Virus record (IMG/VR): IMGVR_UViG_3300033143_001010
Span: 1 to 43,163 of that record
DNA length: 43,163 nt
Origin: a virus
Reading direction: 5' to 3' (one strand)
A model generated the notes under the pieces. That model searched no databases. It worked only from the letters and a program-made list of their open reading frames with translations, and was not told the origin of the DNA. The position numbers and the translations under genes were made by a program. Below are positions 3,427 through 34,103 of this stretch, one piece after another; positions within the stretch are counted from its first letter, which is position 1, and each line of letters opens with the position of its first letter.

Positions 3427-4182
3427 TTAGTTAAAGAAACCTGATTTATCTAATGCTTCGATGTATGCTGTTTCACTCTCGTATGTACCATCACGAACAA
3501 GTGTTCGCATCACACGCGTAGTATTTTCATCAAGGTCTTTAACTGTGTAGTTGGGCGCTCTTACCCTAGAATTGGCTCTTCCGGCTCCTTCTACAGGAGA
3601 TGGTCTATTACGAGTAGGTGTAAACTTATCAGGGAAAGCAGACTTAACTTCTTCAGTTACCTGCGCTAATATCCCTGCGTCCATTTTACCGTATTTCTGT
3701 GCATACTCCTGACCAACTGCATCTGCGTATCGCTTCAACTGTAAGTCAGAATCATACCATGTATTTGTCTCAGCCCAGTTATCAAACTCTGTAGTATCTT
3801 GAGCTACTGGTACTGGCGGAGCCTGATGGATATCCACGATCTGCTCATCAATTTCAATGACACGATCATGTTCCTCATTCTCCAAAGCCACACGTTTCTG
3901 TACCTTAAGGTCATCAACACGTTGCTTATTAATGGATTCCTCTAGCGTAGCTAGGTGCTGCTGTAAGGCAGACTGGGAATCTTGCATATGTTTTACAGCA
4001 CGTTCTGATTGGTGGATCTTATCGTACAAAGGTTTACGATCAATAAACTCCTCTGCTGAGAGAGACCTACGACCTTCTACTCCCTCTGGGTTCCACCCCA
4101 TCTCTAGTGCTTCGTTTTCTACTTCGTTAAATTCTGGTTCTTGTTCCAGTTCTTCTTTGTGCTCTAGGTTCTCTTCACCCAT
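3427..4182 (-). CDS. Capsid scaffolding protein
   Basis: 251 residues. It is strongly acidic at the N-terminus (EENLEHKEELEQEPEF), then predicted helical and coiled coil at roughly residues 55-125, with a Pro-rich break (QAPPVPVAQ) and a basic tail region (TPTRNRPSP...GRANSRVRAP). This acidic-helical-basic layout and the position between portal and capsid genes are typical of dedicated scaffolds. Its start overlaps the end of the co-chaperonin gene by 8 bases, which suggests translational coupling. Confidence 0.85.
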   Translation of the reverse strand: MGEENLEHKEELEQEPEFNEVENEALEMGWNPEGVEGRRSLSAEEFIDRKPLYDKIHQSERAVKHMQDSQSALQQHLATLEESINKQRVDDLKVQKRVALENEEHDRVIEIDEQIVDIHQAPPVPVAQDTTEFDNWAETNTWYDSDLQLKRYADAVGQEYAQKYGKMDAGILAQVTEEVKSAFPDKFTPTRNRPSPVEGAGRANSRVRAPNYTVKDLDENTTRVMRTLVRDGTYESETAYIEALDKSGFFN

Positions 4183-4489
4183 TTACTTTCTCCATAACAA
4201 CCAATATATCTTCATCATTGATCACAACAAACTCTTCGTCTGTCTCTGTATCTACAATAGATTTACCTGAATGTCGTACATAACATACCTTATTACCTTC
4301 TGCTGCCCAAGGTTTACCATCGCCTTTCTTGTCCTTCCAACATTCTGGACCAATAGCAATGATAGTGCCATATACTTGTGCGGCTCTTTCAAGACGCTCA
4401 TTCATTACAAGTGCTATACCACCCTCACTCATATCATCTACTTCGTCTGGTTTAATCAGTAGCCTATAGCCACATGGTTTAATCTTCAT
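4175..4489 (-). CDS. GroES-like co-chaperonin
   Basis: 104 residues from the ATG at 4489 (MKIKPCGYRLLIKP), which matches the usual N-terminus of Cpn10; longer starts at 4498 and a TTG at 4507 are possible. Visible family features are the beta strand GYRLLIKP, a mobile-loop region carrying GGIAL, the GTIIAIGPE strand and the C-terminal ILVVME strand. GroES caps the GroEL folding chamber. There is no GroEL gene here, so it would work with host GroEL, as T4 gp31 does for its capsid protein. Its place between portal and scaffold genes fits a capsid-folding job. Confidence 0.85.
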   Translation of the reverse strand: MKIKPCGYRLLIKPDEVDDMSEGGIALVMNERLERAAQVYGTIIAIGPECWKDKKGDGKPWAAEGNKVCYVRHSGKSIVDTETDEEFVVINDEDILVVMEKVNG

Positions 4490-4694
4490 CTTCTTCATCT
4501 CCCTCAAATTCTGCCTTGAGGAAAAAATCTAATCCCTTAACTATACCCACATCTTGTGCGGTAAGGGCCTCTTTGCCTAAGCTATCACCTCTAACTAGTT
4601 TGTCTGCGTAAGCCTCACGGACTTCCTTAAACAACTTCATTAGTTCAACAGTAACTGCGTGGTCTCTCCACTCTATGAACTCTGTTCTTGTCAT
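4479..4694 (-). CDS. Small acidic-tailed protein, unknown
   Basis: 71 residues, mostly helical in character (FIEWRDHAVTVELMKLFKEV), ending in a highly acidic tail (EFEGDEEDED). It lies 9 bases after the portal gene and overlaps the co-chaperonin start. Small proteins of this kind often sit behind portal genes in podovirus-like phages, but I do not recognise a named family. Function unknown. Confidence 0.75.
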   Translation of the reverse strand: MTRTEFIEWRDHAVTVELMKLFKEVREAYADKLVRGDSLGKEALTAQDVGIVKGLDFFLKAEFEGDEEDED

Positions 4695-7163: not shown

Positions 7164-8635
7164 TAGCCAGTAATTACGTTACGGCCATCGTCATATAGAC
7201 TATCACCAAATTCTGCTTCATAGGCTTCTTCATCCTCTTCCTCATGGGTGAGTCCGGGGACTATCTTATCGAGGGTAAGTCCAATCCAAGCTAGTGCATC
7301 TACCTGATCATCATGTACATCACGAGGAAATCTTACCATCTCCTGCTCTAGATCAGCGTACCAATCAGCATCCTTATTGAAGTATACTCCACCCTGCCGT
7401 ATACGAGCCTGTATAGATCTGGCTCTAGTCTGCTTGTCTTTTACTGGTACTTCCTTATTTAGATTAAGAAATACCCCACGAGCAAACATCTGTTCATTAA
7501 GGAAAGGACCTAATGCTTTCTCTATAGCCCCTGCTTCTGTAGTAAATAGCTCTGGTCGGTATCTTTCCTGAGTAACAAACATCTCATCAATGATCTCCTT
7601 ACCATCCCACCTACCTCTATTTATATCTACAACATACATATTGTTATCAGAATCAACAGCTACCGTTGCAATAACTGTGTAATCTGCCTTGGTCTCTTTA
7701 CTTATAGCAAAGTCAATAGCAGAGTAATATGAGAGATTCTTATCCCGAAGATCCTCTGGGTCATAGTACTGGAAGTCATCCCGGCGAAAGTACGCTGTAC
7801 TCTCGTCGATTGGGTGGTTTAGATACTCTTGCGAATAGCCAGATGGATTACCATCCTCAACGTAGCTGGCTCGAATATCCTCCAATCTATTTTTGGGGAA
7901 CTTCTCTTCCCACAGGATCTCACTGAAATCCTCATTGTGGGCCTTGTATCTTTTACTGCGCCACTGCTTCTTGTTAAGCAACTTCTCTAACACGCTATCC
8001 ATATGGAGTATAGTTCCGACTACACGAATAACCCCTGAATCACTCAGGGCCGGGACAACCGCGTTAGTAAACCAGTTATAGAGTTTGAGTCTACGCTCCT
8101 TACTCTCAACAGCTTCATCGTCCTCTAGATCATCAACTACGATAAGATCTGGACGCTTGTTCCTCCACTTACGACCACGGATACGTTGACCTGCACCCTT
8201 AGCCATAATACGGAACTGGTGACCATCTTCCATCTTCATGATGATGTTGGTCTCACTGTCCTTTATAAACTTGCCTATACCGAATAGCTCGATTAGGTCT
8301 TCATTCTCTATCAATTGCATCTTGATATCGTTCAAGAACTCAGTACTCTGTGATTCAGTATCTGAGATAATGATCACGTAGTCATGGGATCTAAACAACA
8401 CACTAGCTAGAACATAACTGAGTGTCACAGCCGTTGACTTGGCATGGCCCCGTGGGGCAGCAACTGCTACGTACTTATGACTTGAGCAGCACATCCTCCA
8501 TAATTGCCTATGGAACTGAGGTATTGGTTGTGGAGCATCAAAGGTATGGGTTAGACAACTACCAGTAAACCCTTCTACCATCTTGGTGTTAAGCTTTAAT
8601 TTACCCTTAACAGCCAACGTCGTCCTCAACCTCAT
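7160..8635 (-). CDS. Terminase large subunit
   Basis: 491 residues. The ATPase domain shows a Walker A variant at about residues 59-69 (APRGHAKSTAV), an SDTESQS segment, Walker B at 164-171 (LIVVDDLE) and a VVGTILH coupling motif. The nuclease domain has the first metal Asp in YSAIDFAI and the last in HDDQVDALAW. Together these give the headful or site-specific packaging motor that binds the portal. The start is uncertain: the ATG at 8635 has AGAGG very close, and TTG codons at 8629 or 8617 are better spaced. Confidence 0.93.
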   Translation of the reverse strand: MRLRTTLAVKGKLKLNTKMVEGFTGSCLTHTFDAPQPIPQFHRQLWRMCCSSHKYVAVAAPRGHAKSTAVTLSYVLASVLFRSHDYVIIISDTESQSTEFLNDIKMQLIENEDLIELFGIGKFIKDSETNIIMKMEDGHQFRIMAKGAGQRIRGRKWRNKRPDLIVVDDLEDDEAVESKERRLKLYNWFTNAVVPALSDSGVIRVVGTILHMDSVLEKLLNKKQWRSKRYKAHNEDFSEILWEEKFPKNRLEDIRASYVEDGNPSGYSQEYLNHPIDESTAYFRRDDFQYYDPEDLRDKNLSYYSAIDFAISKETKADYTVIATVAVDSDNNMYVVDINRGRWDGKEIIDEMFVTQERYRPELFTTEAGAIEKALGPFLNEQMFARGVFLNLNKEVPVKDKQTRARSIQARIRQGGVYFNKDADWYADLEQEMVRFPRDVHDDQVDALAWIGLTLDKIVPGLTHEEEDEEAYEAEFGDSLYDDGRNVITGY

Positions 8636-15611: not shown

Positions 15612-16223
15612 ATGAATATACTAGTAGTAGGATATGGTTCTTATCCCCACTACTTCACTAGGTTTGGGCATGTTATACAATATGACCCATCTGCTCATTA
15701 TGATCTGCCTAGTGTGGATGTGGTAGTATTGACAGGTGGTGGAGATGTAAGTCCTCTAATGTATGGTGAGCAGGAACATCGTGCGACTATAGCTGATGGT
15801 GTTCGTGATAATCGTGAGGCATACATAGTTAAGCAGGCATTTGCAAGAGGTATACCCTGTATTGGGATTTGTCGTGGTGGACAGTTCCTATCCGTTATGA
15901 ATGGTGATACACTAGTTCAAGATGTTACAAACCATTACAAACCACATGACGTAGTGTATGATAATAATATGTATAGGGTTACGTCAACTCACCACCAAAT
16001 GATGACAGGAACAACTGGCGAAGTCATCGCGTGGACTAGCGATCTTTCAGACCACTTTCAAGGAGGTAATGGCAAAACTATAGTTATGGAAGATCATAAA
16101 GAGCCAGAAGCAGTATGGTACGATGTCACGAGTAGCCTATGTGTTCAATTCCATCCTGAACAGAACTCAAAGGGTGATTCGGACAAACTTTTCAAGAAAC
16201 TTATGGAGGAATACGTGTTATGA
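15612..16223 (+). CDS. Class I glutamine amidotransferase-like hydrolase
   Basis: 203 residues, a single glutaminase-fold domain. Visible features are the oxyanion-side TGGGDVSPLMYG (41-52), the nucleophile elbow GICRGGQ with Cys87, and the catalytic pair in FHPEQ (His181, Glu183). The GGGDVSP motif places it nearer gamma-glutamyl-GABA hydrolases (PuuD type) than synthetase-linked glutaminases. It would hydrolyse gamma-glutamyl amide bonds or supply ammonia. It opens the amidoligase island, and the next gene overlaps its stop by 4 bases. Confidence 0.88.
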   Translation: MNILVVGYGSYPHYFTRFGHVIQYDPSAHYDLPSVDVVVLTGGGDVSPLMYGEQEHRATIADGVRDNREAYIVKQAFARGIPCIGICRGGQFLSVMNGDTLVQDVTNHYKPHDVVYDNNMYRVTSTHHQMMTGTTGEVIAWTSDLSDHFQGGNGKTIVMEDHKEPEAVWYDVTSSLCVQFHPEQNSKGDSDKLFKKLMEEYVL

Positions 16224-16483
16224 ATATGACTGTACCTGACCATCTGAGATTACAGGTTGTACATTTACATCCTGCAAACTCTAGCCGTCATCAGCGAAAA
16301 AATAGTGTGTATCGTACTATCGCCCGTCTGTTTGACAAGGACACTGATGAACTAATACGTGAGGCATCTAGCAAATGTTCTGACCTCGACATTCCTGATA
16401 GAAAGCGTGGGTATCAGGTAGCTGTCGGTCGCGTATTACAACCTTTCAACAGACCCCACGTCACTGAGGCACATGATGAGTAA
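16220..16483 (+). CDS. 87-residue protein, unknown, in amidoligase island
   Basis: ATGA overlap with the glutaminase-like gene. Basic, His-rich near the start (VVHLHPANSSRHQRKNSVYR). No catalytic motif recognised. Its tight packing between two enzymes of the island suggests that it works with them. Confidence 0.7.
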   Translation: MNMTVPDHLRLQVVHLHPANSSRHQRKNSVYRTIARLFDKDTDELIREASSKCSDLDIPDRKRGYQVAVGRVLQPFNRPHVTEAHDE

Positions 16484-17267
16484 TATTACTGTAGGACACG
16501 ATGCTGAGTTATTCCTGCAGGATGGTAAAGGTGGGTTTGTTCCTGCTATTGGTCTAGTAGGTGGTACGAAGGAAAAACCCTTCAAAGTAGACCAAGGAGC
16601 ATTCCAAGAGGACAATGTAATGGCAGAGTTAAATGTTGACCCTGCTACTACCCGTGAGGAGTTTAGTGATCGTACTAAATACGTTATGGATCAATTGCGT
16701 AAGCATATACGTCCTCATGGCCTTTCACTATCTAAAGAGTCAGCAGCTGAGTTTACCACTGAGCAGTTGGATGATCCTCAAGCTAACATGTTTGGTTGTT
16801 TACCAGACTATGACGCATGGGACATTTGTGAGAATCCACTGATTGATTTATCCGGACAGAATAAGCGGTATGCTGGTGGACATATTCATATTGGTGTACC
16901 CTTCACGAATGACGGTATGGCTATCTGTCGCTTCGTTCAGCGCCTTGATATGACTATAGGTATCGGGATGCAGTTGTTGTTCGGTGAGTCAGAGCGGTCT
17001 AAAACATACGGTAGATGGGGAGCACATCGCCCAACAGCTTACGGTGTTGAGTATCGTGTTCCTGATAACAGTTGGTTATTTAAACCATCGTATCGTCGTT
17101 GGGTGTTTGATGTTGTTGAAGAAATGGCACTCCAATCAGATCGCCCACCTCAGTATACCTTACGTAATCTGACTGATGTAAATAAGTTGAACAGCGGTGA
17201 CAAACGTGAAAACTTACGTCACTTTTACACACACACAACTAGGATTAAATTACCGAAGGTGGTATAA
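16473..17267 (+). CDS. Amidoligase of the phiEco32 type 2 (COOH-NH2 ligase) family
   Basis: 264 residues. Family features are GHDAELFL near the N-terminus (metal/ATP-binding Glu), EDNVMAELNVDPA, the GGHIHIGV strand with two His, and YGVEYRVPDNSW. These are the conserved elements of the glutamine-synthetase-like amidoligases first described from phage phiEco32. Such enzymes join a carboxylate to an amine with ATP. The substrate is unknown. It overlaps the previous gene by 11 bases and ends on the A of the next ATG. Confidence 0.85.
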   Translation: MMSNITVGHDAELFLQDGKGGFVPAIGLVGGTKEKPFKVDQGAFQEDNVMAELNVDPATTREEFSDRTKYVMDQLRKHIRPHGLSLSKESAAEFTTEQLDDPQANMFGCLPDYDAWDICENPLIDLSGQNKRYAGGHIHIGVPFTNDGMAICRFVQRLDMTIGIGMQLLFGESERSKTYGRWGAHRPTAYGVEYRVPDNSWLFKPSYRRWVFDVVEEMALQSDRPPQYTLRNLTDVNKLNSGDKRENLRHFYTHTTRIKLPKVV

Positions 17268-17923
17268 TGATACTAGAAGACTCCCGAGGAGACTTTAACC
17301 AGAAGTATGGTAATTGTATTGTACGTGCATCCTTCAAGGGTGGCGACTTCAAACTCTTTCAGATATATCAGTTTGAGAATGAAACTAACGACGCCCTAAC
17401 AGGACATATACTAAGCGAGAATGGTTCATGGGTACCTAACACGCGAGACATTAAAGATTTAGAGTTCGACTTTACTGTGCCTCGTATGGGTATGATCAAT
17501 GTAGATTCTGCTGTGATGTATATACGTAGGACAACTACCAAGCAATATCGCCAAGCCTTCACCTTTAAGAATGGTGTCATTATAGGTAGCATGATCGAAG
17601 CAGGTCTTACCCACCTAAAAGGACTACATGCTGGGATTGAGGATACTAGGGTGGTAAGAGCGGTTTTCGAACCAACATATTATCCTCTCGAAGAAGCACT
17701 TGAACGAGTGTACAGTGGAGAAGCAATAGCATGTGCTATTACTCATCGTTACTATGTAGCAGTGAGTCCGTACTTACCATATGTATACCTAGGCTTCATG
17801 GGCAAGGTGATAGGCAAGATCGACAGACAGACTGGAGGCTGTTTCCTGTATCGAGAAGCCAGACCATTAATGGAAGACCTGACGCAATACATGGATATTG
17901 CTGGAGAATGTAATGACGTTTAA
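17267..17923 (+). CDS. 218-residue protein, unknown, in amidoligase island
   Basis: Begins MILEDSRGDFNQKYGNCIVR. Mixed alpha/beta, with a Tyr-rich region (THRYYVAVSPYLPYVYLGFM) near residue 165 and a Gly-rich segment after it (GKVIGKIDRQTGGCFLYR). No known motif. It sits between the two amidoligase genes and overlaps both, so a role in the same pathway is likely. It may bind the substrate or be a distant enzyme. Confidence 0.75.
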   Translation: MILEDSRGDFNQKYGNCIVRASFKGGDFKLFQIYQFENETNDALTGHILSENGSWVPNTRDIKDLEFDFTVPRMGMINVDSAVMYIRRTTTKQYRQAFTFKNGVIIGSMIEAGLTHLKGLHAGIEDTRVVRAVFEPTYYPLEEALERVYSGEAIACAITHRYYVAVSPYLPYVYLGFMGKVIGKIDRQTGGCFLYREARPLMEDLTQYMDIAGECNDV

Positions 17924-19037
17924 ATCAATCGCTGATATATCAGAGACCAAAGGAGATCCTAGGCACTTTCAGCCTAGTGATGAATTTGCTCTTCCTTTCA
18001 ATAAGGTAGGCGTTGAGATTGAAGTAGAACATCCACCGAATACGGAAGAACTCGTATCCAAGGGCTTGTGGCAAGCAGTAAGAGAGAATAGCTTGCGAGA
18101 GGTTAAGGGGCGGCGTCCAATAGAGCTTATTACTCTACCCTTATTCGGGGAAGACTTACTTAACGCCTTTACACACTTAGATGAGGCATTTAAAGAGGGG
18201 GAAGCACAGTTTTCCGCTCGCACATCAGTGCATGTCCACATCGAAGTTGTAGATATGGAGAAAGAGGATTTAATTAAACTCCTTCTCCTGTACACGTCAC
18301 TTGAGCGTATACTGTTCCATCACTGCGGTGCAGATAGGGCAGACAACTTGTATTGTCTTCCTTACTATAAGGCCGATCACTTCAAGACCCTGTTATATCA
18401 GGTGTTTGATGCGTTAACAGAAGAGGACACACATAATGCGCAAAGTGTCATATATAACTGGCCTAAATACAGTGCTCTCAACTTACGGCGAATAGCCGAT
18501 CTAGGGACTATTGAATTTAGGCAGCACCACGGTACTGCAGACTCTAAAAAAATACTAACATGGATAAAGATGTTACTATGTATTAAGAGGTATGCTATTG
18601 AAGGAGTTAAGGATATCCATGATTTCCCTAACCTAGTCAGTGGCTTTGCAGCCGATGAATATCTAACTGATATTTTTGGTGTAGACCTAGCACACCATCT
18701 AGTATATCCGGGGGTAGCTGATGATCTCATTAAAGGGGTACGCACTGCTCAGGATGTTCTAGTGTATGCAGGGCTGGATAACCTAGCTGAACGCCTGTTA
18801 AATGAAAACATATATGGTACGAAGACCAGCTCATTTGCTGCAATTCATAATATACCATTTGATGCGCAGGAGTTCTTACGGATAGAGAATCACCAAACTA
18901 CCCGTATCGAAGGATTCAACCCTAACAGACGTCCCCGTAATCGTAATTTAGGGGATATTGTTATGCCCGGGACACCCCGCTACAACGTTGGCGGAGCCTA
19001 TGCATTCACAACCGCAACCACAACTACAGGAGATTAA
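17913..19037 (+). CDS. Second amidoligase (Amidoligase_2-like)
   Basis: 374 residues from the ATG at 17913, which has GGAG at good spacing; the frame is open a little further upstream. Glutamine-synthetase-like elements are VGVEIEVEHP (metal/ATP Glu pair), the IELITLPLFG strand, SVHVHIEV, YSALNLRRIADLGTIEFRQHHGT and a C-terminal Asn/Arg-rich tail (NPNRRPRNRNLGD). This pattern matches the Amidoligase_2 family, a different branch from the gene at 16473. It would form amide or peptide bonds with ATP; the partner substrate is unknown. Confidence 0.82.
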   Translation: MTFKSIADISETKGDPRHFQPSDEFALPFNKVGVEIEVEHPPNTEELVSKGLWQAVRENSLREVKGRRPIELITLPLFGEDLLNAFTHLDEAFKEGEAQFSARTSVHVHIEVVDMEKEDLIKLLLLYTSLERILFHHCGADRADNLYCLPYYKADHFKTLLYQVFDALTEEDTHNAQSVIYNWPKYSALNLRRIADLGTIEFRQHHGTADSKKILTWIKMLLCIKRYAIEGVKDIHDFPNLVSGFAADEYLTDIFGVDLAHHLVYPGVADDLIKGVRTAQDVLVYAGLDNLAERLLNENIYGTKTSSFAAIHNIPFDAQEFLRIENHQTTRIEGFNPNRRPRNRNLGDIVMPGTPRYNVGGAYAFTTATTTTGD

Positions 19038-19042
19038 ATAGT

Positions 19043-20734
19043 ATGTGCGGAATTGTAGGATTTATGGCTAATGGTTATCAAGGCCAAGTAGATCGTACGG
19101 ATTTCTTCGGAGAAAGCTTGTATGCAGATGCTCTAAGAGGGCATGATTCAACAGGTGTATTCTCTGTCAGTCCGAACGGCAAAGAAGTTGATATTTATAA
19201 GAGGGCGTTGAGTGCCTATGACTTCATGAATATGAAGCGGTATGATTCCTTCTCTAATAAATTTAGTAACTCTCCCTTCGTGATAGGCCACAACCGTAAG
19301 GCTACCCGAGGCGGTGTAACTAATGAAACAGCCCATCCATTCAGTTCTAAGAATATAGTGATGGTGCATAATGGTACTTTAAGAAATCACCGCTCTTTCC
19401 CACAAGGTAACTCCTTTGATGTGGATAGTGAGGCTCTTTGTCATGCTATGGCAGAGTTAGGGGCTGTTGAAGCCTTTGAGAAGGCTGAAGGTGCCTTTGC
19501 TGTAGTGTGGTACGATATAGCTACACAGAGCCTACGAATGGTTCGCAATAAGGAGCGTCCGTTGCATTTCGCCTACTGTGCAGATCATGATAGTGTTCTA
19601 GTAGCATCAGAACCGGCAATGATAATGTGGATTGCTTTCCGTAATAAGATACAGATCTCTAAAATTGTACCTCTTAAGGAAGGTGTGATACTGTCATTTA
19701 AAACCAACAGTTTGGATAAGCCTAAGGCTCAGAAGATTGAGTTGTTTACTCCAACATATGGTAATGCTAACTATGCTCGTAATACTAACAATACTGTTGG
19801 GCGTAATCGTCAGTTACCTGGGGTCGCGAAACCGAAGAACCAGCCTGAGGTGAACAAGGCTGATACCAGTGGCCTCAATAGTAGTGGTAACATAGTCCCT
19901 TTCAGTGCTCCATGTTGTACTACCCATGGGAGAGCTACTGAGCACAGAAAAAAGTCTTCATTGCGATTGAAGACATACGATTTGGACTACGGAGACGACG
20001 TTTACTTTGAAGCTCACAGCTTTGAACCATACGCTCGTAGCCATGGCACAGAGAAGGGTGGTGTATTTACTGGGATAATGGGAGATGATAAAATCTCCTG
20101 TGAAATACAGCAACAAGGGTTCCAAGAAAAGAACTATGACGAAGGTGCTTGGTATGTAGCTACTGTTATGGGGATTAGGATTGGTACAACTGTTGATGAA
20201 GATATCATCTGGGTAGTCAATGCAGAGAAGGTAGGCTTTGATGATACTGATCGCCCAAAGGATATACCTATCGCATCGAAGGAACGCGTTGATGACGCTG
20301 TGGAGAAGGCTAAGCAGGAAATCAGGGATGAACGTAAGTTCACCTCAACTAGGGCTGATGAGGCAGGTACTCACGCAGATGCTATAATCATTCTGCCAGC
20401 TACTGGTAACGATAAGCCTACAGCAGATGAGATTGCTGCTAGTATCTTAGCAGACCAAGAAGCAGCAGCTATACTTACGGAGGTAGATAAAAGGAAAAAA
20501 CGACGGATGGCCCGCGTTGCAGGAAAGCGCAAGTATATGGGACCAATGGGCATCCTCTTGTCTAAAGCCTCCTGGAGAGATCGAGTACGAGATGGATGTA
20601 GGGCCTGCCATTTGGCAATCCCCCTATCTGATCACGAAGATGTGGTCTTTCTTGACGCTCAGTCTGGGGGTGGTACTCTTTGTGCTGGGTGTGCTGATCT
20701 CTATTCCAGTAATCATCTTAAATTATTGCATTGA
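19043..20734 (+). CDS. Class II glutamine amidotransferase with C-terminal zinc ribbon
   Basis: 563 residues. After Met removal Cys2 would be the N-terminal nucleophile (MCGIVGF). The Ntn-glutaminase domain runs to about residue 230 and shows IGHNRKATRG, MVHNGTLRNH and EGAFAVVWYD. A long middle region of no recognised fold follows. The C-terminus has a CxxC pair at 519/522 and another at 547/550, a zinc-ribbon layout. It would hydrolyse glutamine and pass ammonia to one of the island ligases. No synthase domain like GlmS or AsnB follows. Confidence 0.85.
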   Translation: MCGIVGFMANGYQGQVDRTDFFGESLYADALRGHDSTGVFSVSPNGKEVDIYKRALSAYDFMNMKRYDSFSNKFSNSPFVIGHNRKATRGGVTNETAHPFSSKNIVMVHNGTLRNHRSFPQGNSFDVDSEALCHAMAELGAVEAFEKAEGAFAVVWYDIATQSLRMVRNKERPLHFAYCADHDSVLVASEPAMIMWIAFRNKIQISKIVPLKEGVILSFKTNSLDKPKAQKIELFTPTYGNANYARNTNNTVGRNRQLPGVAKPKNQPEVNKADTSGLNSSGNIVPFSAPCCTTHGRATEHRKKSSLRLKTYDLDYGDDVYFEAHSFEPYARSHGTEKGGVFTGIMGDDKISCEIQQQGFQEKNYDEGAWYVATVMGIRIGTTVDEDIIWVVNAEKVGFDDTDRPKDIPIASKERVDDAVEKAKQEIRDERKFTSTRADEAGTHADAIIILPATGNDKPTADEIAASILADQEAAAILTEVDKRKKRRMARVAGKRKYMGPMGILLSKASWRDRVRDGCRACHLAIPLSDHEDVVFLDAQSGGGTLCAGCADLYSSNHLKLLH

Positions 20735-20768
20735 TAGACTAGTAGATTGGGTATGGCCTATCGACTAA
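20592..20768 (+). CDS. Overlapping membrane protein, 58 residues
   Basis: Runs out of frame through the end of the amidotransferase gene. The ATG at 20592 has GGAGAG about 12 bases upstream. From residue 17 it has one long hydrophobic region (MWSFLTLSLGVVLFVLGVLI, then SIPVIILNYC) and a tail with WVWPID. Clean membrane character over the overlap argues against a chance frame. Confidence 0.5.
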   Translation: MDVGPAIWQSPYLITKMWSFLTLSLGVVLFVLGVLISIPVIILNYCIDRLVDWVWPID

Positions 20769-20769
20769 C

Positions 20770-20787
20770 ATGTTGTCTAGACAACAT
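20770..20787. promoter_or_regulatory. GTCTAGAC palindrome, site 8
   Basis: Perfect 18-bp copy, directly before AAAGGAGG of the gene at 20800. A further half-match lies inside that gene at about 20853-20870. This is the last copy on the plus strand. Confidence 0.7.
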
Positions 20788-20799
20788 AAAGGAGGTTAA

Positions 20800-21021
20800 A
20801 TGAGTGGCAGAAAAGGGTATACTATTTTCGTCCGTAATAGCCATAAGTGTGGGTGTTGTCTAGAACTACATCTAGATACTGCGGGTGATTGTGGGGAGTT
20901 AGAGTTCTTTTTGAGGCATGGAATTGCGTCTGTTAAGAAAACATCTCCCCATCTAAATACTACTGATCCGCAAGAGCTGTGTGACAAACTCAAAGAAGCA
21001 CTCAAACGTAACAGTCCGTGA
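20800..21021 (+). CDS. 73-residue Cys-containing protein, unknown
   Basis: Strong AAAGGAGG right after palindrome site 8. It has NSHKCGCCLELHLDTAGDCG near the N-terminus, then a helical region with KLKEALKRNSP. The Cys cluster might bind metal. It stands before the ATP-grasp gene in the island. Not recognised. Confidence 0.7.
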   Translation: MSGRKGYTIFVRNSHKCGCCLELHLDTAGDCGELEFFLRHGIASVKKTSPHLNTTDPQELCDKLKEALKRNSP

Positions 21022-21049
21022 AGAACCAGACGAAGGAGGATCGAAACCA

Positions 21050-21859
21050 ATGAGACCAATAATCTATCCCTATAACTTTGGTAGTAAGAGTGCTAGAGCA
21101 CTATCTAATCTACTCAGACAGAGGGGTTATAGAGCTAAGCGTGTTAGACCGGACGGTAACTATCGTCCATATAGAAACCATATGATTATTAACTGGGGCT
21201 TTCAACATGTACCTGAGTTTCTACGGAATCCGGTAACTGGATGTGGTCCGGTTGTTAATGGATTTGAGGCAGTAGGTAGGGCTAGTAATAAACTGCTAGC
21301 ATTCAGAGCTATGGAAGAAGCAGGTGATGTAGCAATACCTGAGTTCACCACTAGCACAGAGGAAGCACAGGCATGGGTTGATGGAGGTGGGATAGCAGTG
21401 TGCCGTAATATACTCAGAGGACACTCAGGTGCAGGTATTGGTCTGGTAGGACAGAGTATTATTGACGGAGATCACACAGGAGTAGTACCACGTGATGTTC
21501 CTATGTATGTGAAGTATCTGAAGAAAGCCACTGAGTATAGAATCCATGTATTCAATGGCCGCGTAATTGATATTCAACAGAAACGTAAACGAGGAGGTAT
21601 GGAAGAAGGTGGAGTTAATTATCAAATACGCAACCATCAGTTCGGCTGGGTTTATTGCCGTGGTGATGTCGCCCCTCATCAGTCTGTTCTTGACAATGCC
21701 ATTGCTAGTGTTAGGGCTTTGGGCCTGGACTTTGGTGGTGTGGATGTTATCTGGAATGATCATTACGAGCAAGCACATGTGTTGGAAGTCAACACAGCTG
21801 TGGGCTTGGAAGGACAAACGGTAATAAATTATGCTAACGCGATTCAACAACTTCTTTAA
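21050..21859 (+). CDS. ATP-grasp ligase
   Basis: 269 residues from the ATG at 21050, chosen because AAGGAGGA precedes it; the frame is open upstream. Typical ATP-grasp elements are present: a YVKYL strand before EYRIHVFNGRVIDIQQKRKR, then LDFGGVDVIWN and the metal-binding VLEVNTAVGLEG. These match the RimK/carboxylate-amine ligase branch. It would activate a carboxylate as acyl-phosphate and join it to an amine. With the two amidoligases it is the third amide-bond-forming enzyme of the island. Confidence 0.87.
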   Translation: MRPIIYPYNFGSKSARALSNLLRQRGYRAKRVRPDGNYRPYRNHMIINWGFQHVPEFLRNPVTGCGPVVNGFEAVGRASNKLLAFRAMEEAGDVAIPEFTTSTEEAQAWVDGGGIAVCRNILRGHSGAGIGLVGQSIIDGDHTGVVPRDVPMYVKYLKKATEYRIHVFNGRVIDIQQKRKRGGMEEGGVNYQIRNHQFGWVYCRGDVAPHQSVLDNAIASVRALGLDFGGVDVIWNDHYEQAHVLEVNTAVGLEGQTVINYANAIQQLL

Positions 21860-21890
21860 CTGGCTAGCGCCAATACACGAGGAAAAAGAC

Positions 21891-22292
21891 ATGCACGGTA
21901 CACTTGTAATAGGCCCATATACTAGTGGGGCAGAACATAATAAACAGATAGTTTACACTACACATAACAACAAGGAGTTTAAGTATACCCATCGTCATAT
22001 GGGAAGTCAGTGTGGTATAGCTATACTACATGGATGCTACCCTGCGGATAATGCCTGTACTAAAACTATATCTAAACATTTTGTACAGGATCTAAGAGAT
22101 TACTACTGTCACGGTGGGGGTAATGGTTTAGGTAAGGTTATCATGAGTGCTGTTGTTGGTAGCAATCTACATAAACTCCTAAAGCAAAGTGATCAGTGGC
22201 AGTTTGGTACTGCAGTAAGGAACCCTAACTCATCTAGCTACATTCAAACATTTGAGTTAGACATTAGCGTAGGTAAGAGGAAACCGTCGTGA
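21891..22292 (+). CDS. Paralogous unknown protein A (CGIAILHG)
   Basis: 133 residues from the ATG at 21891 (GAGGAAAAAGAC upstream); the frame is open further back into the ATP-grasp gene. It shares a pattern with the next gene: M-x2-x-CG(I/V)A(I/V)xHG, a downstream KV(I/V)M(S/T) and a C-terminal (F)EL. Overall identity looks low. No known family is recognised. The conserved Cys and His suggest an active or metal site. Confidence 0.7.
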   Translation: MHGTLVIGPYTSGAEHNKQIVYTTHNNKEFKYTHRHMGSQCGIAILHGCYPADNACTKTISKHFVQDLRDYYCHGGGNGLGKVIMSAVVGSNLHKLLKQSDQWQFGTAVRNPNSSSYIQTFELDISVGKRKPS

Positions 22293-22630
22293 TATATAGA
22301 ACTGAGAATGGTACAGTGTCCTTCAACGTGAACAAGATGCATGGCTGTTGCGGTGTGGCAGTCGTACATGGAGTTAACTTCGGTGTAATGGCAAATAAGC
22401 GGGCATTCTATGCTGAGTTTAATACCTTCTTAAAGGACGCAACTGATCCATTTAATTTAGACAGATGTAAGGTAGTCATGACTGATCGGGTACGCGAAAG
22501 CCTAGTCCCTTCAATCTATGACTTCTGTACTTCTGCTGGATGGATGGAAGGTGAACACACACCTAACCGTAAATCTGGTCACTCTGTGGTAATCTTTGAG
22601 TTGAGCAGACAATCGTCGAGGACAAACTAA
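22289..22630 (+). CDS. Paralogous unknown protein B (CGVAVVHG)
   Basis: 113 residues, ATGA overlap with the gene before it. Carries MHGCCGVAVVHG near residue 17, CKVVMTDRVRESL and a C-terminal VVIFEL, matching gene A in order and spacing. The pair appears to be a tandem duplication. It lies between the ATP-grasp ligase and the cyclotransferase-like gene, so a role in the island chemistry is likely. Confidence 0.7.
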   Translation: MIYRTENGTVSFNVNKMHGCCGVAVVHGVNFGVMANKRAFYAEFNTFLKDATDPFNLDRCKVVMTDRVRESLVPSIYDFCTSAGWMEGEHTPNRKSGHSVVIFELSRQSSRTN

Positions 22631-23052
22631 TGGGTACAGCTGTGAAATATAAAGTCGATATGGACATTGATATCGGCAACGGTAACTTAGTCTTTGTATA
22701 TGGCACGTTGAAGGAAGGGCATGGTAATCATAAGCACTTCCTATCTAATAGCCTATACCATGGCCCACACAAGACAGGTGCACAACATCAGATGTTAGAC
22801 TTGGGATCGTTTCCCGGTGTAATCTATGGTGGTGGTGTTACTCCTATCAGTGGTGAGGTGTATGAGGTCAGTGATAAGACGCTGGGTAGACTTGATGGAC
22901 TAGAAGGTTACCCTGACTTCTATAACCGAACGCGTATTGTTACTCCGTACGGACTGGCCCTCATGTATATTTTGAGTAGTAACTTCCTCAATAATACCCC
23001 GATAGAAACACGTAACGATGCTGTAATCGAATCGGGGGTATGGTCTCCATGA
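22630..23052 (+). CDS. Gamma-glutamylcyclotransferase-like protein (AIG2/GGCT fold)
   Basis: 140 residues, coupled by TAATG to the gene before. Family marks are VFVYGTLKEGHGNHKHFL (the YGTL substrate loop at 24-27), FPGVIYGGG, ISGEVYEV and LDGLEGYPDFYNR with a candidate catalytic Glu92. Members cleave gamma-glutamyl amines to pyroglutamate and a free amine. Here it could trim or recycle a gamma-glutamyl product made by the island ligases. Confidence 0.85.
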   Translation: MGTAVKYKVDMDIDIGNGNLVFVYGTLKEGHGNHKHFLSNSLYHGPHKTGAQHQMLDLGSFPGVIYGGGVTPISGEVYEVSDKTLGRLDGLEGYPDFYNRTRIVTPYGLALMYILSSNFLNNTPIETRNDAVIESGVWSP

Positions 23053-24245
23053 AGAGCAGTGCACCGACTATGAAAGTAATACTTGATAAGCAAATCCATG
23101 ACAACATATACTGGAGAGCTGGTAAGGCCCGTGCGTCATGCGCAGACGTAGACTGGGGCATAGTAGTGATCGAGGAGGGTGATGAGGAGGGCAACCTTAG
23201 ATCTTACAATGATAACTTTGCTAAGTGTAAGGACTATCTGAATGATACATTAGCGACTATGCTATGTGGTACGAAGGATCTGTTTTCTACTGGTAATGCA
23301 AGACCTAACACCTCCTTTCCTAAGGATCACTTCTATATAACCTTACGATCTACAAGGGTATTAGATATTGAGGAGGGCATAAAAAAGTTCATCAACCCTA
23401 TGGAAGAGGCTGCTGGGTTAGAGCCTACGGTGGTTTATAAAACTGATCACCCACTGTATATACTACTACAGGCTGACTCACTTATAGGCCGTGATGGGTT
23501 CATGCTGAGCACATGGTACATGTTGATACGTTCTATGTTTTCTTCAGCAGAGTATGGTGAGCTGGGTTCTATTGAGGAGTTTGTCCTTGCCCATGCAAAG
23601 GCTGGTGAAAAGGACTCTGGGTACTTGCGTACGATACTAAACTACGTTAAACCTGAGTACTTCCAACGGCTGTTCTCTATAGCTGATGACTTTGTTATGG
23701 AGGAAGAGCGATATAAGGCTGCTATCCTACATGCTGACTATCACGTACACGAGCAGATGGGTGGTATGGAACTGATCCTTGCATTAGGTAACCCAACAAA
23801 CCGTCGTGGTATATCTACTGGAACGCTTAAGCTTCTGGGCTCTCGTCTGAAGATGCTGCGTAACATAATGCCTTGGCAAGAGGGCAAGCACTGGGTTCCA
23901 TTGATCCCAGAAACACCGCCTGAGGTACCACCTCTATGGGGTACTACTGCTCATGGGGTGGTGAATACTACTAATAACATGAATGTTGCTACACAGCCCG
24001 GAGAATGGATGATGGTTGATGGGCGTGGAGATCGAGTACAAGCACAGGTAGCAGTACCTGCAGATGAGGAACAAATCCTGCGCGTAAGAAATCGGGCAAA
24101 TGAGATACGTGTACACCACACTAATGGCTTACGTGACCGGCTACTTGGCGCAGCAAGACCGCGCACGCAGCAGGAGCTGCGAAGGGATCAGATAAGAAGG
24201 GCACGCGAACGTGCTCGTAACGCAATGAACAGAGGTATATTCTAA
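23049..24245 (+). CDS. 398-residue protein with Arg-rich tail, unknown
   Basis: The start is taken as the ATG at 23049 (ATGA overlap, GGGGG upstream); 23040 is possible. An alpha/beta N-terminal part is followed by helical regions, a Pro-rich hinge (PLIPETPPEVPPLWGTTAHG) near residue 290, and a basic C-terminus (RRDQIRRARERARNAMNRG). No family recognised. As the last large gene of the island it may be an enzyme of the pathway or the modified protein itself; both are guesses. Confidence 0.75.
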   Translation: MKSSAPTMKVILDKQIHDNIYWRAGKARASCADVDWGIVVIEEGDEEGNLRSYNDNFAKCKDYLNDTLATMLCGTKDLFSTGNARPNTSFPKDHFYITLRSTRVLDIEEGIKKFINPMEEAAGLEPTVVYKTDHPLYILLQADSLIGRDGFMLSTWYMLIRSMFSSAEYGELGSIEEFVLAHAKAGEKDSGYLRTILNYVKPEYFQRLFSIADDFVMEEERYKAAILHADYHVHEQMGGMELILALGNPTNRRGISTGTLKLLGSRLKMLRNIMPWQEGKHWVPLIPETPPEVPPLWGTTAHGVVNTTNNMNVATQPGEWMMVDGRGDRVQAQVAVPADEEQILRVRNRANEIRVHHTNGLRDRLLGAARPRTQQELRRDQIRRARERARNAMNRGIF

Positions 24246-24530: not shown

Positions 24531-24560
24531 TTAGACACCAACTATAAGGAATAGTTCAAT
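24531..24560 (+). repeat. 30-nt box, copy 2, at the primase start
   Basis: Matches 10101-10130 at 22 of 30 positions, with identical TTAGACA at the left and GAATAGTTCAAT at the right. It ends 2 bases into the primase start codon and follows a 60-bp AT-rich stretch. It is the only real gap in the island-to-replication stretch, so a promoter for the replication genes is likely here. Confidence 0.5.
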
Positions 24561-25407
24561 GAGTAATGTTGATGATGAGATCCTCATCTTAGCAAAAGAT
24601 TTAGAATTAGGTGAAACTATTTCTAGTTCTGACTGTCCAAGCTGTGATGGAGGATTTAAAAAGGATAGGGCATTCACTGTAACACGAGTAGATCAGGGGT
24701 ATGTTTACAACTGCTTCCGAGCTACGTGTGGTTTGTGTGGGTTCGTACCTACTAAGAGGGTAGCTAAACAACGCCACCATCCTAGGACGACCCAGCAAAG
24801 ACGTGGTGAGCACGCTCCCAACAAAATAAGTACACAAAAATTCGAGCCAAGATATTATCTCGATGGAATAATGAGCTTAGACACAAAACAGAAGGAGTAC
24901 CTACAAGATAAGTTCACCATGAGTCCCTCAGAAATAGAGTCAACACGGGTTAAGTACAACCCAGTTCGGGATACATACGTGTATCCTATCCGTAGTTCAA
25001 CAGGAGAAAAAGTAGGAGTAGTCGACAGAAGTTACACAGGAAAAAGAAAACCTAAAGCAATAACATATCGCGAAATGGATAGGCCATTGCTTCACTTTCC
25101 ACTTCAATTCTCTGCAATGAGGAAGGGTCCAACCTACCTTGTTGAAGATCAAATGAGCGCAACGAAAGTAAGCCGATACGCAAACTGCGTGGCCTTGTTG
25201 GGGTGCAACCTGACCGATACTGGAGCTACAGTGCTTCAGCGCGTTACTGATAAAATAATATTCGCACTGGATGGTGATGCAACCAACGCAGCCCTCCGTT
25301 TGCGGAATGAATATGCTGGGATGTTTAAATATGTAGGTGTAATACAGCTACAAAAAGATCCTAAGGATATGGATGATGAGACTTTGAAGGGTACCTTCAG
25401 AGATTAA
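24559..25407 (+). CDS. DNA primase (zinc finger plus TOPRIM)
   Basis: 282 residues. The N-terminus has zinc-binding Cys pairs (DCPSCDGG ... ATCGLCGF), as in T7-type primases, which read the template. A TOPRIM domain follows with the Glu in YLVEDQMSATKV and the DxD pair in IIFALDGDAT. It makes RNA primers for lagging-strand synthesis. It is separate from the helicase gene, unlike T7 gp4. It opens the replication block after an AT-rich gap. A short box shared with the divergent control region lies at its start. Confidence 0.88.
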   Translation: MSNVDDEILILAKDLELGETISSSDCPSCDGGFKKDRAFTVTRVDQGYVYNCFRATCGLCGFVPTKRVAKQRHHPRTTQQRRGEHAPNKISTQKFEPRYYLDGIMSLDTKQKEYLQDKFTMSPSEIESTRVKYNPVRDTYVYPIRSSTGEKVGVVDRSYTGKRKPKAITYREMDRPLLHFPLQFSAMRKGPTYLVEDQMSATKVSRYANCVALLGCNLTDTGATVLQRVTDKIIFALDGDATNAALRLRNEYAGMFKYVGVIQLQKDPKDMDDETLKGTFRD

Positions 25408-25419
25408 GGAGTATATTAT

Positions 25420-25701
25420 ATGGCATGGATAGACGTAAAACATAGGCTGCCAACTACTGCTGGTCCCTTTTTAGTTTTTTGTCCCCCGTCCGGCAATGGG
25501 CAACTAACACAAGACATACGTATTATATACTTTAATACTGAGCAGGGACGTAGTCACAGAGTATTAGAAACTAAGGGCATATTTAGATGCTGCCGGTTAA
25601 TAACCCACTGGGCACCCTTACTACCACCACCTACAGAGGAGGATAATGAGCAACGAAAACAAAATACTGAACTTAGCATTCCAATCAAAGGAGGCGTATG
25701 A
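25420..25701 (+). CDS. DUF551-like protein
   Basis: 93 residues. The pattern MAWIDVKHRLPTTAGPFLVF, then Cys-rich middle and ITHWAPLLPPPTE is typical of DUF551, a small phage and prophage family of unknown role. It overlaps the helicase start by 56 bases out of frame, an unusually long overlap. Confidence 0.75.
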   Translation: MAWIDVKHRLPTTAGPFLVFCPPSGNGQLTQDIRIIYFNTEQGRSHRVLETKGIFRCCRLITHWAPLLPPPTEEDNEQRKQNTELSIPIKGGV

Positions 25702-26848
25702 TGAACTGGACAAACATCTATCTCTGGAGGACTTTGAGGGTCATAGTAAGATTCTTTACTCGGCTATCCAGAAGTACTACGAGCTTGATCCAGAGGTAGA
25801 GAGCTGTGACAAAGACATAATCCTCTCGCAGATAGAAAGGAAGTACCCGAAGCATAGTGAAACCTTTAGGCTAGTGATACAGGGGTTCGAGGACCTATCT
25901 GTACCCAATATGCTTAAAGAAATACTGGAGTTGAAGAAAGTTAATACAGCCCATGAGTTGGCTGGAGTTCTTCTGAGTGGCAGAGACAGGGATGTTGATG
26001 GCCTCATCGACCAGTACCAGAAGCTATCCGAGGGACTATTAGAGGATGAAGATGTAGTCGGCACAGAGATATACCAAGGTGAATCTGTCGCTAGTATAGT
26101 AGACGCTTACAAAGAGGAGAACTTGATAAAGGTTTATCCCCGCGCCCTTAATGACAAGCTTGGCGGGGGCGTACCAACTCAGACACACATCGTGTTGTTT
26201 GCAGAGCCTGAGATGGGCAAGAGTTTGATGGCTATAAACATGGCTGCTGGTTTCTGCCGAGATGGTAGACGTACCTTGTTCGTTGAGAACGAGGATGCAG
26301 CTAAGCAAACTCTCATGCGGTTCATCAATAGGATGAGTGGTATGACTAAGTACGAAGTAATCGAAGACTACGAACGGGCTGAACGGTTGGCTCTTGAAAA
26401 AGGGTATGGGAATCTAATCCTTTCTTCCATGAGTCCGGGAACTATCTCTGAGATTGAGGGTCTAATAAAGACCCATGAACCTGAATGTTTGATCGTGAAT
26501 CAAATTCGCCACCTGAGTTTTAAGCGTGTAGATGGAGAAGTAGCACAGCTAACACAGGCAGGCAAGGCAATGCGAGCACTCATCAAGAGGTACAACCTAG
26601 TAGGGGTTAGTATCCACCAAGCAGGTGATTCAGCTACCAACAAATTGGTACTGGAGAGAGGTGATGTATACATGAGTAACACTTCCTTACCCGGTGACGC
26701 CGATGTTCTAATAGGCATTGGAGCTAACACCACATTTAAGGAGGAAGGCAGACGTATGATAAGTCTGGCCAAGAACAAGGTGTCCGCCAATCATGATTAT
26801 TTTCCGGTCGCCTTTGATGAACATTTAAGCAAGGTAATATCAATATGA
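25646..26848 (+). CDS. DnaB-like replicative helicase
   Basis: 400 residues, GAGGAGGATA before the ATG. An N-terminal helical domain (about 1-130) is followed by a RecA-fold motor with a divergent Walker A (FAEPEMGKSLM, about 185-195), the VENEDA segment, Walker B region ECLIVNQIRHL, the H4-like VGVSIHQAGDS and the terminal AKNKVSANH motif. The first Gly of Walker A is replaced by Ala-Glu. It would unwind the fork together with the primase encoded just upstream. Confidence 0.87.
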   Translation: MSNENKILNLAFQSKEAYDELDKHLSLEDFEGHSKILYSAIQKYYELDPEVESCDKDIILSQIERKYPKHSETFRLVIQGFEDLSVPNMLKEILELKKVNTAHELAGVLLSGRDRDVDGLIDQYQKLSEGLLEDEDVVGTEIYQGESVASIVDAYKEENLIKVYPRALNDKLGGGVPTQTHIVLFAEPEMGKSLMAINMAAGFCRDGRRTLFVENEDAAKQTLMRFINRMSGMTKYEVIEDYERAERLALEKGYGNLILSSMSPGTISEIEGLIKTHEPECLIVNQIRHLSFKRVDGEVAQLTQAGKAMRALIKRYNLVGVSIHQAGDSATNKLVLERGDVYMSNTSLPGDADVLIGIGANTTFKEEGRRMISLAKNKVSANHDYFPVAFDEHLSKVISI

Positions 26849-33293: not shown

Positions 33294-34103
33294 ATGATTA
33301 TACTAAAGAGGACTAAGTACCCTGTTACTATTGCTATAGGAGATCCCCATGCTAGCCCGAACCATTCCAACGAACGTTTTGAGGCACTGGGTAATTTCAT
33401 CGCGGCTAACCAGCCGACGAACATAGTACAGATAGGTGACTTCATGAGTCTGGATAGCGTGAGTACATTCTCAACTACTAAGCCACTACTACGCGAGGGC
33501 AAGAGATTGTCTGATGATTTAGAGGCAGGACAAGACGCTTACGACAAGATGATGGCACCAACAGTTAAGTACAACAAGGCTAGATCTAGGGCTAAGAAGA
33601 AGAAGTATACGCCCAACAAGATCTGGCACAACGGTAATCATGAGGAACGGGTGTATCGCTACATCGTTGAATCTCCTGAGCTACTTGGACTAGTAGATCA
33701 CACTGACCTACTGGAGTTGGGAAAAGATGGATGGGATGTTAAACAATACAGAGAGTACTCAGAGTATGAGGGCATTACATTCACACATATACCTATGTGT
33801 AAACGGATGAATCAACCTATCTCTGGTGAGTATGTGACTCGTCGAGCAGCTGACGGCCACGCTTCTACTGTTGTGTTTGGTCATACCCATCGCTTGGGCA
33901 TACATGACAGCAAACAACATGGCCAAGAAGTAACATATGGTATTAACATCGGTTGGTTTGGTGACTACGTGCCTAGTTATGTTAAGGGTAACGAAGAGAA
34001 CTGCGACTGGTGGTCTGGGGTTGTACAGCTAGTACACACAGCACATGGTAAGGTTCTGATCATGCCTATTGATATGGATACATTGAAGAGGGAGTATCTG
34101 TAA
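33294..34103 (+). CDS. Calcineurin-like metallophosphoesterase
   Basis: 269 residues, GGAGG before the ATG. The metal motifs are in order: IAIGDPHAS (Asp17, His19), IVQIGDFMS, WHNGNHEERV and VVFGHTHR. A basic insertion (ARSRAKKKKYTPNK) lies between the second and third. Members hydrolyse phosphoesters; those in phage replication modules act on nucleotides, DNA ends or proteins. The substrate cannot be read here. Confidence 0.85.
   Translation: MIILKRTKYPVTIAIGDPHASPNHSNERFEALGNFIAANQPTNIVQIGDFMSLDSVSTFSTTKPLLREGKRLSDDLEAGQDAYDKMMAPTVKYNKARSRAKKKKYTPNKIWHNGNHEERVYRYIVESPELLGLVDHTDLLELGKDGWDVKQYREYSEYEGITFTHIPMCKRMNQPISGEYVTRRAADGHASTVVFGHTHRLGIHDSKQHGQEVTYGINIGWFGDYVPSYVKGNEENCDWWSGVVQLVHTAHGKVLIMPIDMDTLKREYL

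Follow-up and report, generated by a model that had tools for sequence, protein, structure and literature searches.

What do phages make with two amidoligases, an ATP-grasp ligase, two glutaminases and a cyclotransferase encoded side by side? The question is raised by an island of amide-bond genes in the viral record IMGVR_UViG_3300033143_001010, the whole stretch of which (43,163 nucleotides, hereafter the window) was analysed and its island compared with related phage loci.

Layout of the island and its place among known cassettes

The island consists of 12 same-strand ORFs from 15612 to 24245, mostly overlapping (Table 1); all neighbouring genes overlap or lie at most 5 nt apart, except for a 65-nt gap ahead of ORF 20800. 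An earlier note on this DNA had counted eight genes, and the run proved longer, continuing to 24245. The enzymes named there, listed in our opening question, were all found where it had placed them, with significant Pfam or PHROG matches, and the alignments show their catalytic residues, both conserved and expected, to be in place. Its ORF list was otherwise in need of repair, as it had missed the 73-aa ORF, had taken an in-frame ATG (21891) for the opening of the ORF that starts at ATG 21831, and had placed at 23049 the ORF that begins at 23040. A primase (24559-25407) and then a DnaB-like helicase (25646-26848) follow downstream of the cassette. Promoter matches (28 versus 27.3 expected) showed no excess over chance and were not used.

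Table 1. Genes of the amide-bond island, in window coordinates, with the evidence for each assignment
Feature	Position	Strand	Evidence
Class I glutaminase-like / peptidase C26 (gamma-glutamyl hydrolase type)	15612..16223	+	PF07722 5.8e-20
87-aa ORF, no detectable relative	16220..16483	+	no Pfam/PHROG match
phiEco32-type COOH-NH2 ligase (GCS2-like)	16473..17267	+	PF14395 3.8e-8; phrog_3815 2.9e-57
"Mid" protein, core cassette gene	17267..17923	+	family profile 1.1e-13
Amidoligase_2 (GCS2-like fold)	17898..19037	+	PF12224 5.8e-15
Class II glutamine amidotransferase, long C-terminal region	19043..20734	+	PF13522 4.5e-19; phrog_4736 2.1e-85
73-aa ORF	20800..21021	+	position as small gene of phiEco32/LUZ24-type cassettes; position only
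ATP-grasp amide ligase (RimK-like)	20981..21859	+	phrog_2599 3.5e-76
GNAT-like family protein (predicted), copy 1	21831..22292 (in-frame ATG 21891)	+	family profile 4.3e-26 after iteration
GNAT-like family protein (predicted), copy 2	22289..22630	+	AlphaFold2 pLDDT 90.1 + Foldseek matches
Gamma-glutamyl(amine) cyclotransferase (AIG2/GGACT; GGCT in the text)	22630..23052	+	PF06094 1.3e-21
401-aa protein (W401), recurrent cassette family	23040..24245	+	19 members, 16 unique loci

The COOH-NH2 ligase, Amidoligase_2, class II glutaminase and ATP-grasp ligase lie together on one strand, and the window is a new member of the known cassette of phages RIO-1, phiEco32, LUZ24, PA11, and CW02, in line with the tie to phiEco32-type amidoligases drawn in the earlier note. 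In the literature the cassette has been named the "peptidoglycan modification cassette" for the Pseudoalteromonas phages RIO-1 and HP1 (PMC5498523), and we found no biochemical test of it there. RIO-1 and HP1 resemble the window in carrying GGCT, class II glutaminase, COOH-NH2 ligase, mid, Amidoligase_2, and ATP-grasp genes ahead of a primase; however, the window also encodes a C26 enzyme, the GNAT-like pair and W401, a PRE-family gene was not detected in it, and the order differs. The phiEco32-like and LUZ24-like phages (Bas88, UFV-P2) share the window order, ligase-mid-amidoligase-class II glutaminase-small gene-ATP-grasp-GGCT, whereas their records are without a C26 gene, the GNAT-like pair was not found in them, and the window ligases are about 22-30% identical to theirs. 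Zobellviridae cassettes with C26 (GP100, PSA11) have this enzyme and the same five core genes as the window, but their class II glutaminase precedes the ligases, and GGCT is absent from both whole records.

Searching 50,697 phage records brought up amidoligase relatives in 336, and all 16 diverse named phages compared carry genes for both GCS2-like ligases, the class II glutaminase and the ATP-grasp ligase. A search with the ATP-grasp ligase through representative genomes of 84,980 species returned five loci only, all on MAG contigs, a near-absence that is expected of lytic phages.

The ligase-mid-ligase unit and the accessory families

For the comparison, 155 unique loci were collected through the ATP-grasp or the COOH-NH2 ligase, so that these two genes are in part present by selection; complete loci (n = 84) had at least 3.5 kb flanking on each side, and gene presence was scored after whole-record searches. 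The "mid" protein sits between both ligases in 125 of the 125 loci with adjacent ligases and is a core gene of the cassette, while gene order outside this unit varies between loci. It was recognised by sequence in 15 of the 16 named phages, and the remaining phage has an unannotated ORF that matches it. The family is visible by profile search only, as tblastn with ORF 17267 gave no phage match; scanning viral contigs with Amidoligase_2 or ORF 21831 as single proteins likewise returned no relatives, which alignment queries did find. The AlphaFold2 model of mid (pLDDT 89.2) is mostly beta, with no PDB match at E<=1e-3 and weak matches to SH3/Sm-like barrels. In the flanking ligases, nearly all conserved columns of the COOH-NH2 enzyme are intact, including E12, D47, E52, H137/H139, and E193/R195, and Amidoligase_2 conserves E40/E42/E44, H112/H114, and E206/R208; the class II glutaminase begins with MCGIVGF.

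Several genes without an assigned function had been suggested to be the specific parts of the system, a suggestion that most of them do not bear out: ORF 17267 is core, and 21831/22289 and 23040, which likewise recur in related clusters, are accessory families. Only 16220 and the previously missed 20800 are left without a relative, none being found when 13,699 ORFs from 178 sequences were searched. A sequence relation between ORF 20800 and the small gene of phiEco32-like cassettes was not detected.

ORFs 21831 and 22289 are small paralogues with a predicted GNAT-like fold that lacks the CoA-binding motif. The listed Foldseek matches of the 22289 model are GNAT enzymes or complexes holding one (probability about 1.0), the best E being just 1.9e-3 and TM about 0.5-0.6. 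The motif Q/R-x-x-G-x-G/A is absent from both proteins and matched by 3 of 43 family members, and we therefore name the fold GNAT-like and not the proteins acetyltransferases. Every member of the W401 family lies inside or adjoining the cassette. A kinship of W401 with the PRE family was rejected (E 0.6-0.8). The PRE and W401 genes nonetheless rarely share a locus, one of the 84 having both (Fisher p 0.008, without correction for the tree).

Replacement between C26 and GGCT

ORF 15612 scored 72 bits with PF07722 (cut-off 20.5), and its Cys-His-Glu triad is complete, with Cys87 in GICRG and His181-Pro-Glu present; its PDB relatives include PuuD (6vtv, 2.9e-5). By family match and triad, it is a predicted hydrolase that fits the C26 gamma-glutamyl hydrolases of PuuD type. 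The GGCT protein retains the YGTL motif and the glutamate of LEGYP, and its closest solved relative is YtfP (1xhs, 1.6e-13).

Among the 84 complete loci, 39 have C26 alone, 26 have GGCT alone, 19, including the window, have both, and none has neither, so that each complete cassette encodes at least one gamma-glutamyl-cleaving family. Dependent evolution of the two genes was preferred (LR 21.4, 4 df, p = 2.6e-4) on a core-protein tree of these loci built by one quick method, and zero "neither" loci arose in 0 of 609 simulations of independent evolution with similar marginals (median 10). The likelihood test and the simulation were used because a sign test was underpowered, with only 4 supported independent pairs, too few for significance. 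The C26 enzyme and GGCT stand in for each other across complete cassettes, although the 19 loci with both may make full interchangeability doubtful. Reduced cassettes in phages of Gram-positive hosts retain an amidoligase and GGCT.

Members of both families are known to cleave gamma-glutamyl bonds; C26-family members can also act as glutaminases, giving ammonia, and substrates vary among GGCT-fold proteins. Because the two interchange and both are known gamma-glutamyl cleavers, the cassette probably has to pass through a gamma-glutamyl amide. PuuA is a glutamine-synthetase-family enzyme, and the phage ligases, unlike it, belong to the GCS2-like COOH-NH2 and Amidoligase_2 families. With PuuD it forms the established ligase and C26-type hydrolase pair of putrescine use, a pathway that resembles the proposed cassette in ATP-dependent gamma-glutamylation and subsequent removal by a C26-type hydrolase (PMC9397018).

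Proposed mechanism and its alternatives

We lean towards the view that the product of this amide-ligase cassette of lytic phages is a small molecule or conjugate with a gamma-glutamyl group, made in the course of infection, and the gamma-glutamyl build-and-trim system of the earlier note finds support here. First, the class II glutaminase would convert glutamine to ammonia and glutamate. The two GCS2-type ligases could then use ATP to form gamma-glutamyl (or similar) amides, with mid holding both ligases together or presenting the substrate to them, and the ATP-grasp ligase would append a further residue. Finally, the C26 hydrolase or GGCT could strip a gamma-glutamyl carrier or protecting group, or recycle excess product. 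We infer in which order these steps run, that the intermediate is a gamma-glutamyl compound and that the system acts during infection. Tentatively, and with well under even confidence, we add a more specific version, wherein obligatory gamma-glutamyl protection and deprotection by either of two structurally unrelated enzymes, C26 or GGCT, is combined with a ligase complex built around mid as its scaffold, and the GNAT-like pair, which has no CoA motif, would bind or transfer the peptide onto an undiscovered acceptor in lytic infection.

Alternatively, the cassette could rebuild peptide links in host peptidoglycan, thereby blocking superinfection or creating endolysin target sites, as has been hypothesised for RIO-1-like and LUZ24-like phages (PMC5498523; PMC11945000). 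The enzyme types suit peptide ligation and some cassette members infect Gram-positive hosts; however, the genes lie within the replication (early) module, directly ahead of the primase and away from the lysis genes, no exporter or lipid-linked enzyme was recognised in the cassette, and RimK and GGCT relatives work on soluble molecules or proteins, and we consider this reading unlikely, though deserving of attention.

Another reading, in which a protein of host or phage receives a peptide or glutamyl tag that is also trimmed, in the way RimK modifies ribosomal protein S6, appears improbable to us. RimK (5zct, 4.2e-5) is the nearest solved structure to the ATP-grasp alignment profile, mid, with its weak barrel matches, could dock a target, and phage ATP-grasp ligases were earlier proposed as protein modifiers (PMC4431377, PMC7824862). 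The ATP-grasp ORF opens with GTG, with homology beginning near residue 24, and K182, R187, D255, E269, and N271 are invariant. Nevertheless, all Pfam models fall below cut-off for it (RimK 16 bits versus 21, R2K_2 15.9 versus 26.2), and the requirement for C26 or GGCT suggests small gamma-glutamyl substrates.

Loosely associated nitrogen-scavenging genes without a common product would agree with the variable order around the ligase-mid-ligase unit and with glutaminases and GGCT that could recycle glutamine nitrogen, but the core travels together, with overlapping genes, across very divergent phages, which leaves this reading little room. DNA or nucleotide hypermodification, which the earlier note had allowed as a target and which the adjoining replication genes might suggest, is hardly credible, as no hydroxymethylase, base-modifying transferase, 7-deazaguanine gene or other recognisable base-modification enzyme was found among the window proteins scanned.

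In conclusion, the comparison of the unique loci newly identifies mid as core, the replacement between C26 and GGCT, the predicted GNAT-like fold of the two paralogues and W401 as a recurrent family. Some of the amidoligase-bearing phages are in use as models or for therapy, with E. coli and Pseudomonas as hosts. Mid provides a defined core component for any reconstitution of the cassette, and the alternation of C26 and GGCT a concrete chemical clue, which points to a gamma-glutamyl intermediate.

The amide-ligase cassette and its spread

The enzymes named in the earlier note, namely two amidoligases, an ATP-grasp enzyme, two glutaminases and a cyclotransferase, were all found in the island with significant matches, within a run of 12 ORFs from 15612 to 24245 in which nearly all neighbors overlap by 1-41 bases. 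In the 43,163-base window, the capsid, portal and terminase genes lie on the minus strand of the left part, with a gene for a GroES-like chaperonin (Cpn10) amid those for virion structural proteins, and the plus strand carries the replication genes (primase, helicase, DNA polymerase and ribonucleotide reductase). Primase and DnaB-like helicase are two genes here, while downstream of several related cassettes there is just one primase/helicase gene. Between 14200 and 25600, 12 terminator-like hairpins occur versus 6.2 in shuffles (~2x). The window also encodes a calcineurin-like metallophosphoesterase, and genes for such enzymes and for amidoligases have both been described in OM43 phages (PMC10580990).

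Positions of cassette genes and other features in the window, with residues found
Feature	Position	Strand	Residues or match
Cpn10 chaperonin	4175-4507	-	PF00166, 1.9e-11
C26 (class I glutaminase-like)	15612-16223		Cys87/His181/PE intact
87-aa ORF	from 16220
COOH-NH2 ligase	16473-17267		conserved columns nearly all intact
'mid'	17267-17923	+
Amidoligase_2	17898-19037		E40/E42/E44, H112/H114, E206/R208 intact
Class II glutaminase			MCGIVGF intact
ATP-grasp			K182/R187/D255/E269/N271 intact
73-aa ORF	from 20800
GNAT-like paralogues	from 21831 and 22289
GGCT (gamma-glutamyl cyclotransferase)	22630-23052		YGTL and LEGYP intact
401-aa ORF	23040-24245
Primase and helicase	24559-26848
Metallophosphoesterase	33294-34103

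By tblastn, relatives of Amidoligase_2 and the class II glutaminase occur in 336 and 330 phage records, respectively, and COOH-NH2 ligase, Amidoligase_2, class II glutaminase and ATP-grasp were present in each of the 16 cassettes retrieved from a diverse set of phages (kuraviruses, Grimontviridae, LUZ24-like phages, Zobellviridae and others). Such cassettes have been named peptidoglycan modification cassettes or modules on comparative grounds (PMC5498523; PMC11945000), a proposed role for which no experimental test was found in the literature. Because this kind of cassette is already published and its core genes are common to diverse phages, the window cassette is a new, very divergent member; the closest core protein among the loci compared shares 39% identity, and no nucleotide match to the window was found in the phage collection. 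An ATP-grasp scan of the genomes of 84,980 species returned five loci, all on MAG contigs and four with the cassette core, which is consistent with lytic phages and speaks against a pathway of the host.

The 'mid' protein and accessory genes

Alignment-based IMG/VR scans with ATP-grasp and COOH-NH2 ligase as queries gave 160 loci, and 155 unique loci after named phages and the window were added, a selection conditioned on these two core genes and including some fragmentary contigs. The 218-aa 'mid' ORF matched its family profile, built without the window sequence, at 1.1e-13, an E-value stemming, like all profile E-values here, from models made and iterated during the analysis. A family member sits between the ligases in 125/125 loci where the two are at most 1.3 kb apart, the gene overlaps the downstream Amidoligase_2 in 88% of cases, and in every locus lacking 'mid' the ligases are farther apart. 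The AlphaFold2 model (107 sequences) is confident and mostly beta (pLDDT 89.2, pTM 0.85), with weak PDB matches, many to SH3-, Sm- or Tudor-like small barrels; we infer that 'mid' may be a non-catalytic adaptor. Phage ctwe8250 (L014, MW202615) has an unannotated ORF with 'mid'-family features between its ligases at about 7200-7900. Loci L129, L150, L158, L160, L171 and L176 lack 'mid' and have separated ligases and altered gene order, and L150, L158, L160 and L176 form a single tree clade.

The 21831/22289 family occurs in 33 unique loci, often in multiple copies, with 41/42 genes within the cassette or at most 1.5 kb away, a zone of about 52% of locus length. The 22289 model (pLDDT 90.1) has GNAT acetyltransferases as its structural matches, at a probability of about 1.0 but with modest E-values, so the predicted fold is GNAT-like. 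A Cys-Gly pair is almost invariant in the family, a few members keep an R-x-x-G-x-G-like CoA motif, and acetyl transfer is not claimed because both window copies lack it. The family of the 401-aa ORF (19 proteins, 16 unique loci) is always within or adjoining the cassette. A second family, PRE, accompanies 52 loci (L005, L007, L008 and L012 among them), rarely co-occurs with the 401-aa family and was not detected in the window; its proteins, of about 300 aa, adjoin the cassette, at times as tandem duplicates, and those scanned had no Pfam match. No relatives of ORFs 16220 and 20800 were detected. In RIO-1, an annotated glutaredoxin directly follows the cassette (L006 10304-10525), a possible hint of a thiol product.

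Alternation of C26 and GGCT

The 84 loci that carry all four enzymes and have flanks of 3.5 kb or more on both sides were initially scored as 40 with C26 only, 25 with GGCT only, 18 with both and one with neither. This last phage, Proteus J3S, has GGCT farther downstream, directly before the primase; searching the whole records found one more GGCT in the 40 C26-only records and C26 in 0/26 GGCT-only records, giving a final 39, 26, 19 and 0. On a quick tree built from both GCS2-type ligases together with ATP-grasp, the minimum presence changes were 8 for C26 and 9 for GGCT, and a dependent-evolution model was preferred over independence (LR 21.4, p 2.6e-4), with either enzyme being lost almost exclusively where the other occurs; 0/609 independent simulations with matching frequencies reached zero loci with neither. 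These patterns suggest that C26 and GGCT are two interchangeable gamma-glutamyl-cleaving enzymes. Both families are known for cleaving gamma-glutamyl bonds, and therefore the most straightforward interpretation is a pathway with a gamma-glutamyl amide that must be cleaved. Gram-positive phages with reduced sets likewise retain amidoligase and GGCT.

Proposed pathway

The best supported mechanism is one in which the class II glutaminase would split glutamine, the two GCS2-type ligases with 'mid', plus ATP-grasp, would make amide bonds one after another, and C26 or GGCT would take off a gamma-glutamyl group. The target may be the cell wall, a protein or a small molecule. The PuuA/PuuD pathway follows a similar logic (PMC9397018), but the phage ligases belong to different families, and therefore the phage cassette would work like PuuA/PuuD without being a member of that pathway.
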